Shown: one piece after another, positions 19,761 through 22,715 of the stretch | Position numbering within the stretch: the stretch's first letter is position 1 | Layout of the letters: each line of letters starts with the position of its first letter | NCBI GenBank assembly: GCA_016191165.1 | Contig: JACPPF010000100.1 | Location: 1-52,719, forward strand | DNA from: Planctomycetota bacterium | GTDB lineage: Bacteria; Planctomycetota; Planctomycetia; Gemmatales; Gemmataceae | Reading direction: 5' to 3' | DNA: 52,719 bases | Made by a program: the position numbers and the translations under genes | Notes under the pieces: generated by a model | The model's input: only the letters and a program-made list of their open reading frames with translations | What the model was told of the DNA's origin: nothing | Databases searched by the model: none

Positions 19761-20456
19761 ATGTCGCAAGAAACCTTCCCGTCACCTGCTGCCGCGGCCA
19801 TGCTCGATCGGCTCGGACCGATCGTGCGGGAGACAGTGTACATCGAGGATCGCGAGTTCCTGCTCGATCACCCCGAGTCCGATCGGCTCATGACCCTGGA
19901 CGTGGTGCATGAAGCGTTTGCCAAAGATGAATACATGCCGTACTGGGCCGACATCTGGCCCGCCTCGCGCATGCTGGCCAGGGCGGTTCTGCATGAACCC
20001 TGGACGCCAGGAACCGAGGCGCTGGAGCTGGGGTGTGGTCTGGGCCTGGCCGGCATCGCGGCGCTGGCGATGGGCTTGAAGGTCACGTTCAGCGACTATG
20101 ACGCCTGTGCCTTGCACTTCGCCGCGGGGAATGCTCGGCTGAATGGCTATCACGATTTTCGCACCCAGCAAATCGACTGGCGCTACCCACCCGATAATCT
20201 GCGCGTCCCCGTGATTCTTGCCGCCGATCTGGTGTACGAGATGCGCATCCTGGCGCCGTTGATCGCGTTCATCAAAAAGGTATTGCGACCCGGCGGCCTG
20301 TGCCTGTTGACCGATGTGGACCGTGTTCCGTCGCAAGCTTTCAATGAGTTGCTCCAGACGGAGAACGTGAGTTTCACCAAAAAAATGATGCGCGCCGGCG
20401 AACCAGGAGGCCGCCGGGTCAAGGGAACCCTTTATCGCATCACGATCCCGCCATGA
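19761..20456 (+). CDS. SAM-dependent methyltransferase (METTL/Nnt1-like)
   Basis: This 231-residue class I methyltransferase has SAM-binding motif ALELGCGLGLAGIAALAMGL (about residues 92-111), acidic motif II in VTFSDYDACAL, DWRYPP, and VILAADLVYEMRI, typical of the lysine-methyltransferase-like METTL21/Nnt1 branch. The preceding YMPYWADIWPASRMLA segment is also characteristic. The substrate is probably a protein lysine or N-terminus by family analogy, not shown here. No membrane segment. It is probably the first gene of a run with the redox genes that follow. Confidence 0.8.
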   Translation: MSQETFPSPAAAAMLDRLGPIVRETVYIEDREFLLDHPESDRLMTLDVVHEAFAKDEYMPYWADIWPASRMLARAVLHEPWTPGTEALELGCGLGLAGIAALAMGLKVTFSDYDACALHFAAGNARLNGYHDFRTQQIDWRYPPDNLRVPVILAADLVYEMRILAPLIAFIKKVLRPGGLCLLTDVDRVPSQAFNELLQTENVSFTKKMMRAGEPGGRRVKGTLYRITIPP

Positions 20457-20525: not shown

Positions 20526-21044
20526 ATGCACGCAATACGCGGTGTAATCGTGTCAGCAATTGCGGCCGTCCTGTGCGCGGCGGCCACGCCGGCGCAGGAA
20601 AAACAAGTCACGGCCACACTCGTCAAGTACGATGGGCTCAAGCAAGAGATTCTCAAACAGCGCGGCAAGGTCGTCGTCGTCGATTTCTGGGCGACCTTCT
20701 GCCCGCCGTGCATGAAGGCGTTTCCCAAATTCATCGAGATGCAAAAAGAACATGCCGCCAGGGGACTGGTCGTCATCAGCGTGGCCATGGATGACTCCAA
20801 GGATGAGGATGCGGTCAAGCGCGCCAACAAGTTCCTCACCAGGCAAGATTCGCCGCTTCGCAATTTACTCCTGGACGAACCTTCCACGATCTGGAAAGAG
20901 AAATTCGGCATCACCTCGCTGCCGTGTTACTTCATTTTCGATCGCCAGGGCAAGTGGGTGCGCTTCCGCGCCGAAGACAGCGAGACCGGTGTAAACTATG
21001 ATGAACTCAAGAAAGTCGTTGTCCAGATGTTGAACGAGAAATGA
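20526..21044 (+). CDS. TlpA-family thiol-disulfide protein (Cys form)
   Basis: This 172-residue exported thioredoxin-fold protein has a signal peptide (residues 1-23) and the fold start KVVVVDFWATF with active-site C59-P-P-C62. The cis-Pro region SLPCYF follows (its extra Cys next to the Pro is notable). It acts as a periplasmic thiol oxidoreductase. GGAGG lies 10 bases before the ATG. It is the Cys-containing twin of the next gene: same length, active-site residues at the same number. Confidence 0.9.
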   Translation: MHAIRGVIVSAIAAVLCAAATPAQEKQVTATLVKYDGLKQEILKQRGKVVVVDFWATFCPPCMKAFPKFIEMQKEHAARGLVVISVAMDDSKDEDAVKRANKFLTRQDSPLRNLLLDEPSTIWKEKFGITSLPCYFIFDRQGKWVRFRAEDSETGVNYDELKKVVVQMLNEK

Positions 21045-21049
21045 GCTTG

Positions 21050-21120
21050 GCCGCGCCCCGACGGGGAGCGCGGTTCGACTCAGCGTGTCGTTCATTTCGC
21101 GCTCCCCTTCGGGTCGCGGC
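21050..21120. repeat. Hairpin between the two TlpA genes
   Basis: The arms GCCGCGCCCCGACGGGGAGC and its near complement GCTCCCCTTCGGGTCGCGGC enclose about 25 bases. It lies directly after the stop of the first TlpA gene. It could weaken read-through or protect the mRNA end; no T-run follows, so it is not a typical intrinsic terminator. Confidence 0.7.
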
Positions 21121-21136: not shown

Positions 21137-21655
21137 ATGACTGCCAAGCATTCCCTTTCCTTCTTTTTCATTCTGGCCGCGCTCGGTACACTCCCGGGCC
21201 AAACTCAGGAAAAGAAGATCGAACTCCTACCGGTGAAATACACGGAACTCAAGGCTGAAGTGCTCAAGCATCGCGGCAAGGTCGTGGTCGTCGATTTCTG
21301 GGCCGGGACCTGAGGGCCATGCATGAAAGCCATGCCGCATCTGGTCGAGATGCACAACAAACACGCGGACAAGGGATTGGTGGTCATCACCGTGGCCCTG
21401 GACCCGCCGGACCAGAAGGACCTCGTCGCACAGGCGCAGGCGTTCTTGCAAAAGATCAAGTCACCCGTGCGCAACCTCCTGCTGGCCGAGCCGGAGGAAT
21501 ACTGGTCGAAGAAACTCGATTTCGTTTTTCCGCCCTGCTATTACGTCTTTGACCGCCGCGGCAAATGGGTGCGCTTTCGGGCCACGGATTTCGACGACGG
21601 CATTCCCTATGCTCAGATGGACAAGCTCATCCTGCAAATGCTGGCGGACAAGTAG
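21137..21655 (+). CDS. TlpA-like protein with in-frame UGA at the active-site Cys (candidate selenoprotein)
   Basis: This 172-codon gene encodes a signal peptide (KHSLSFFFILAALGTLPG), then KVVVVDFWAGT, a TGA at 21311-21313 (codon 59), then GPCMKAMPHLVEMH and an intact remainder to codon 172. The upstream twin has C59 at exactly this place and the same total length. The frame is otherwise open and conserved past the TGA (RGKWVRFRATDFDDG). This gives a U-G-P-C active site if UGA is read as selenocysteine. A SECIS-like hairpin follows the codon (listed separately). The alternative is a simple nonsense mutation. The start at 21137 places the leader correctly; an ATG at 21041 would run through the intergenic hairpin. 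Confidence 0.75.
21337..21353 (+). promoter_or_regulatory. Bacterial SECIS-like hairpin
   Basis: The RNA GCAUCU-GGUCG-AGAUGC forms a perfect 6-bp stem with a 5-base loop whose first bases are GGUC. The loop starts 29 bases after the UGA. Known bacterial SECIS elements have a small apical loop with a G in its first two positions about 16-37 bases after UGA; the E. coli fdhF loop also carries GGUC. The stem is short, so chance cannot be excluded. Confidence 0.55.
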
Positions 21656-21664
21656 CGAGGATTC

Positions 21665-22150
21665 ATGCACACGACCGACCCGCACAAATCCCTCGGCGCC
21701 GCCCTGGGCCGCATTCCCAGCGGCATCTTCATCCTGACAGCGGCGCGCGGCGGCGTGGAAACCGGGATGCTCGCCAGCTGGATTCAGCAGTGCGCCTTTG
21801 TGCCACCCACAATCACGTTCGTCGTGCAGCGCGGCCGACCGATTGGCGATCTACTTGGTACGGATGCGCCGTTCACCATCAACATCCTTGAAGCCGCGCA
21901 GACCGACATGATCGCCCACTTCGGCAAAGGCTTCTCGCTCGAAGACAACGCCTTCCTGGGCCTGGCCGTCCGCGACGCCCTGCCTTACGGCCCGATCCTG
22001 GAGGAAGGGCACGCCTACCTCCTTGGCAAAGTGCAGGACCGCATTCCCGTGGGCGATCACGACCTGTACCTCGCCGAGATCACCGCCGGCAGCCTCCTCG
22101 AAGAAGGCCAGCCAATGGTGCATGTACGCAAGAATGGGTTTCATTATTAG
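21665..22150 (+). CDS. Flavin reductase-like domain protein
   Basis: This 161-residue protein of the FMN-binding split-barrel flavin-reductase family opens with GAALGRIPSGIFILTAARGG, followed by GMLASWIQQCAFVPPTITFV, the typical FMN-contact segment, and INILEAAQTDMIAHFGKG. Such proteins reduce or bind flavin, often supplying a partner oxygenase. The start lies 9 bases after the upstream stop with GAGGA before it, so it is probably in one operon with the two TlpA-like genes, a redox-themed group. Confidence 0.82.
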   Translation: MHTTDPHKSLGAALGRIPSGIFILTAARGGVETGMLASWIQQCAFVPPTITFVVQRGRPIGDLLGTDAPFTINILEAAQTDMIAHFGKGFSLEDNAFLGLAVRDALPYGPILEEGHAYLLGKVQDRIPVGDHDLYLAEITAGSLLEEGQPMVHVRKNGFHY

Positions 22151-22173: not shown

Positions 22174-22245
22174 CCACGAGCCGCGACCGTCAGGGGGGGA
22201 ATGGATTCACGGTCATCCCGCTCGCTGACGGTCACGGCTCGTGGT
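22174..22245. repeat. Palindromic intergenic repeat
   Basis: The arms CCACGAGCCGCGACCGTCAG and CTGACGGTCACGGCTCGTGG pair across a loop of about 30 bases. It lies between the flavin reductase gene and the zinc-finger gene. Confidence 0.75.
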
Positions 22246-22301: not shown

Positions 22302-22715
22302 ATGTCCTGCCACCTGTGCGAATCCGAAGCGGTCACGCGGTGTCATACCTGCGGCGTGCTCATTTGCGAGCAGCACGGCGGCAAGGACGATCTTTGCACG
22401 CAATGCAGCGGCGGCTTCACCGCGGGTGATCCGCGCACCCGCATCAGTGACGAACCGCTCGGACAATCAAAACAATCAGGTGGGTGGTGGCGGCCTCAGG
22501 AAGCGGAGGAATTTCAGCCGACGTCGTGCTATCAATGCCAGGCGCTCGCACGCGCGGTTTGCCGAAACTGCCTTAGCAATTTCTGCCCCGAGCACACAGG
22601 ACCGAATGGGCTGTGCAAGGCGTGCGGGCAATCCGCGAATCTCGGGCTTTGGGTCATGGCCGGCGTCGCGAGCTTGTTGGTGATCTGGTTATTGCTCCAA
22701 TGGTTCCGCGCCTGA
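22302..22715 (+). CDS. Double B-box-like zinc protein with C-terminal membrane anchor
   Basis: This 137-residue protein has two similar Cys/His clusters: CHLCESEAVTRCHTCG with CEQH (residues 3-25), and CYQCQALARAVCRNC with CPEH (about 75-98). Both resemble B-box zinc fingers. A single hydrophobic helix (GLWVMAGVASLLVIWLLLQW) at the C-terminus suggests a tail-anchored protein with the zinc domains in the cytoplasm. Its function is unknown; such domains usually mediate protein contacts. Confidence 0.75.
   Translation: MSCHLCESEAVTRCHTCGVLICEQHGGKDDLCTQCSGGFTAGDPRTRISDEPLGQSKQSGGWWRPQEAEEFQPTSCYQCQALARAVCRNCLSNFCPEHTGPNGLCKACGQSANLGLWVMAGVASLLVIWLLLQWFRA

Follow-up and report, generated by a model that had tools for sequence, protein, structure and literature searches.

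A putative selenocysteine-containing TlpA/ResA-like oxidoreductase encoded beside its cysteine twin in a Gemmataceae genome

The window, a stretch of 52,719 nucleotides from a Planctomycetota bacterium of the family Gemmataceae, carries on its forward strand a group of genes headed by a Methyltransf_16-type SAM methyltransferase (19761–20456), identified from Pfam and conserved by synteny as the upstream neighbour. It is followed by a 172-residue TlpA-like protein with a C-P-P-C active site (20526–21044), a gene interrupted by an in-frame UGA (21137–21655), a flavin reductase-like protein that is the conserved downstream neighbour (21665–22150; PF01613, 7e-24; synteny), and a small protein with a B-box-like zinc motif (22302–22715) that has a weak Pfam match and is kept as a neighbour in close relatives. 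The order of methyltransferase, TlpA copy or copies, flavin reductase and B-box-like protein is maintained in the genus, and much of the order is maintained beyond it. The initial annotation of this DNA had described an operon with the flavin reductase, which holds in terms of conserved gene order but is not supported as a unit of transcription. Tandem pairs of a cysteine copy and a selenocysteine (Sec) copy are present in G000, G061, G063, G065 and G066, and also in G033, G034 and G093; other relatives have the Sec form alone or the Cys form alone. In one relative, a third tandem TlpA copy that has lost both active-site cysteines (L049 2694–3176; W-N-T-W-N-V-P-A) is located next to one Sec copy and one Cys copy. 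An inverted repeat with 23-nt arms that are 91% complementary (21050–21072 / 21098–21120) is located between the Cys and Sec genes of the window, and a second with 20-nt arms that are 95% complementary (22174–22193 / 22225–22244) is found 3' of the flavin reductase gene.

The interrupted gene begins with an ATG at 21137, ends with a TAG at 21653–21655 and comprises 172 codons. A further in-frame ATG at 21041, which overlaps the stop codon of the Cys twin (ATGA), provides an alternative start 32 codons upstream. The single in-frame UGA is codon 59 (21311–21313, forward strand), and comparison with homologues places it at the first active-site position of a U-G-P-C motif. Translation and a reading of the open reading frame confirmed what had been claimed of the gene, namely that an adjoining 172-residue twin presents C-P-P-C at the same position, that the UGA occupies the site of the first of these cysteines, and that the frame is otherwise open up to codon 172. 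Ordinary gene calling would break such a gene at the UGA or report two short open reading frames. As a result, many Gemmataceae genomes probably carry wrong annotations for this enzyme and its relatives.

With the UGA translated as Sec, the protein matches the Pfam families AhpC-TSA, Redoxin and Thioredoxin_8. An AlphaFold2 model calculated from 36 sequences (pLDDT = 92.4) positions residue 59 immediately before a helix spanning residues 60–79. The nearest solved structures are DsbE/ResA-like, and a Foldseek search returned DsbE, ResA, DipZ and CcmG. Across both alignments, four residues do not vary: W55, C59 (with Sec entered as C), C62 and P133. The protein may be considered TlpA/ResA-like in terms of a predicted thioredoxin fold, a UxxC motif where the first core helix begins, and an invariant proline in a later loop. 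A cysteine follows this proline (Cys134) in all six Sec copies of the genus versus one of its six Cys copies. A hydrophobic stretch resembling a signal peptide, judged by eye, is present at the amino terminus of the Sec protein and its relatives. From its sequence, the Sec protein is probably an exported thiol-disulfide oxidoreductase.

Downstream of the UGA, the sequence GCAUCU-GGUCG-AGAUGC (21337–21353, forward strand) is predicted to form a hairpin with arms at 21337–21342 and 21348–21353 and a GGUCG loop at 21343–21347, the distance from the UGA to the loop being 29 nt; the sequence, loop and spacing are all as first described. PMC13188914 gives the limits of bacterial SECIS elements as a loop of 3–9 nt, a stem of 4–16 bp, a G among the first two loop nucleotides and a spacing of 16–37 nt. 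The hairpin falls within these published limits, in agreement with the earlier suggestion that it resembles a bacterial SECIS element. An equally good hairpin with a GU or GGU loop follows about 1% of the UGA triplets in the window, and 14% of random recodings that leave the peptide unchanged also give one. Since a hairpin in a single sequence is weak against chance, the SECIS assignment rests on the comparison with relatives. A scan of the window against Rfam at gathering thresholds produced no match; thus, the assignment is neither backed nor contradicted by any Rfam model.

Of the selenium machinery whose presence had been proposed as a check, selA (559.9 bits), selB (361.6 bits) and a tRNA-Sec (selC) with the anticodon UCA (73 bits) were found in the source genome, an assembly of 7.2 Mb in 183 contigs that is 95% complete. 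A search of this assembly for the remaining gene, selD, gave only weak matches, which were rejected as ThiL-like and HypE-like, names that were assigned from their sequences. Since selD is present in six of six genus mates, an assembly gap is the likely reason for its absence here. Planctomycetes, including Gemmata obscuriglobus, have been reported to possess genes for Sec insertion (PMC4807772). Within the family, selB occurs in 76 of 95 genomes, with or without UGA copies. Because it is so widespread, its co-occurrence with the UGA is not discriminating by itself and was set aside as evidence; among UGA-bearing genomes that are at least 90% complete, 21 of 22 have selB.

Thirty-seven of the 95 family genomes encode a homologue in which this codon is likewise UGA, with the rest of the frame intact, and so do two genomes from another family of the order. 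Most other homologues have a Cys codon at position 59, and Asn occupies it in one degenerate third copy; among the matches listed class-wide, other families have homologues without stops. It is known in general that UGA may be read through by a tRNA for tryptophan. The codon could be read here as some amino acid other than Sec, or it could deliberately truncate the protein to produce a regulator; however, the UGA is always at the position of the catalytic cysteine, it is followed by a hairpin with SECIS geometry and a GGU loop, selA, selB and tRNA-Sec are all encoded in the genome, and the part of the gene 3' of the UGA is conserved as protein. Either reading is considered very improbable.

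The pairing of the hairpin was scored in 77 distinct sequences. All six stem pairs are present in 34 of 37 UGA copies versus 1 of 40 Cys copies, and the Cys twin of the window retains three of six pairs with no SECIS pairing. The loop, when counted from the sixth pair, begins with GGU in every UGA copy listed. In one clade, the outer pair has undergone a compensatory change from G-C to C-G; in many copies, a seventh G-C pair lengthens the stem where Val-Glu is replaced by Val-Gln; and the copy in L076, which has a one-codon insertion, retains the hairpin. Three UGA copies are imperfect: L083 and L087 contain one mismatch each, and L088 has only a shifted alternative. The hairpin might instead arise simply from encoding the conserved peptide PHLVEM, without acting as a SECIS element; such a reading would be in keeping with the ease with which synonymous recodings arrive at it. 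When the comparison is restricted to copies that encode the same peptide (xHLV[EQ]M), the six pairs are complete in 34 of 34 UGA copies but in only 1 of 20 Cys copies (Fisher p about 1e-13, uncorrected for relatedness); that one fully paired Cys copy also counts for the by-product explanation. In these 34 UGA copies, His is always encoded by CAT and Leu always by CTG; in the Cys copies, CAC and CTC predominate. In terms of phylogenetically independent Sec/Cys contrasts, the hairpin accompanies Sec in six to eight of eight and never in reverse (median p 0.008). The chance that the hairpin merely reflects the peptide is therefore judged to be slight, still smaller than that of another readthrough product or a regulatory truncation. 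The weakest alternative, a nonsense mutation in a decaying duplicate of the Cys twin, can draw on the intact twin directly upstream and on the third copy without active-site cysteines described above, but it is effectively excluded by the conservation of the UGA at the same codon of an otherwise intact frame in 37 family genomes, by the hairpin conserved together with it, and by several relatives in which the UGA copy is the sole copy.

With selA, selB and tRNA-Sec present, with UGA or Cys at codon 59 of the orthologues and with a hairpin that follows the UGA and not the Cys, the selenoprotein proposed by the initial annotation is upheld. That annotation had tied its proposal to selB, to tRNA-Sec and to the orthologous codons; both genes are present, and the orthologues carry UGA or Cys. 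From the sequence comparisons, the gene at 21137–21655 almost certainly encodes a selenoprotein in which UGA59 is read as Sec. SelB loaded with Sec-tRNA-Sec would bind the hairpin 29 nt 3' of the UGA, and the ribosome would then place selenocysteine as the attacking residue of the U-x-P-C active site, with Cys62 serving as the resolving residue in the proposed chemistry. The protein would probably reduce or exchange disulfides outside the cytoplasm. The tandem Cys copy probably performs the same chemistry at a slower rate and free of selenium, in a presumed division of labour.

A tree of 73 proteins, calculated with the active-site residue masked, contains at least eight switches between Sec and Cys when judged by its starred branches, and 11 on the best tree. 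A single clade of all Sec copies was rejected (p 8e-7), as was a single clade of the Cys copies of tandem pairs (AU p = 0.0004), a group that was named after the tree had been seen. The Cys and Sec copies of the genus represented by the window group together in a single clade of 12 with full support. Since there are at least eight switches and the Cys copies of the pairs do not form one clade, the tree suggests that twinning of Sec and Cys forms is recurrent in Gemmataceae, perhaps as a backup for selenium availability. Gene conversion is an alternative to repeated duplication. PMC13188914 describes selenoproteins as rarely retained by aerobic bacteria; several close relatives of the source genome are from lake-named samples. 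The family, in which a single protein has switched many times at a single locus and twins adjoin each other, allows selenium and sulfur chemistry to be compared in a natural setting.

Methanococcus maripaludis has Sec/Cys isoenzyme pairs under selenium control (PMC11097638), and the Gemmataceae pairs are similar in that a single genome encodes both a Sec and a Cys version of the same enzyme. The methanogen pairs differ in that they are archaeal, mostly comprise enzymes of energy metabolism and have a demonstrated selenium-dependent switch, whereas the likeness here is one of gene pairing alone. By analogy, it is a tentative idea, less probable than its converse, that tandem Sec and Cys copies arose repeatedly at one Gemmataceae locus and serve as a switch for selenium availability, as a bacterial counterpart of the methanogen isoenzyme pairs.

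Thioredoxin-like UxxC families are known among bacterial selenoproteins, as had been noted for this gene, with TlpA-like, Redoxin and Prx-like members listed in PMC13188914 and PMC1088965. Among these are the thiol-disulfide isomerase-like UxxC selenoproteins (cd02966, TlpA-like) from a Sargasso Sea set (PMC1088965; also Table 1 of PMC13188914), which share the TlpA-like fold, a single Sec at the first position of UxxC and a SECIS element directly downstream. They differ in their marine metagenome origin, and the passages on them in the two sources do not mention a tandem Cys twin. Table 1 of PMC13188914 also lists UxxC selenoproteins of the Redoxin family (PF08534) and of the Prx-like thiol:disulfide oxidoreductase type (PF00578); the window protein matches the same Pfam families and has the same motif. 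These labels are broad, and the comparison is one of label and motif. The NCBIfam model NF041054 (WAxxUGC_long) also describes a ResA-like domain with an active-site Sec; however, it has 354 positions and a UGC motif, in contrast to the UxxC of the window protein, which scores 26 bits where the cut-off is 300. No NCBIfam model, including ResA, TlpA and WAxxUGC_long, reached its cut-off with the window protein, each being missed by far. A literature search combining Gemmata or Gemmataceae with selenoproteins returned nothing on the Sec protein of the window. While UxxC TlpA-like selenoproteins are already known, the recurrent tandem Cys/Sec pairing in a conserved locus is the distinctive feature here.

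At least seven further thioredoxin-fold genes of the genome have a UGA at a redox position along with a SECIS-like hairpin, for a genome total of at least eight with this signature. One is a peroxiredoxin-like gene directly upstream of selB and in the same orientation (L035, G000:C139), with a UGA near 1952 in the motif T-G-G-U-T-A-E-A-C and a hairpin with an AGUUU loop 37 nt downstream of the UGA. Five more thioredoxin-fold genes, at L029, L030, L031, L039 and L040, likewise combine a UGA in the redox position with SECIS-like hairpins. The gene at L028 (G000:C131:48927–49274, reverse strand) has a thioredoxin fold and two UGAs in a U-L-H-U motif, with one hairpin, ACGAGC-GGUC-GCUCGU, located 31 nt after the first UGA.
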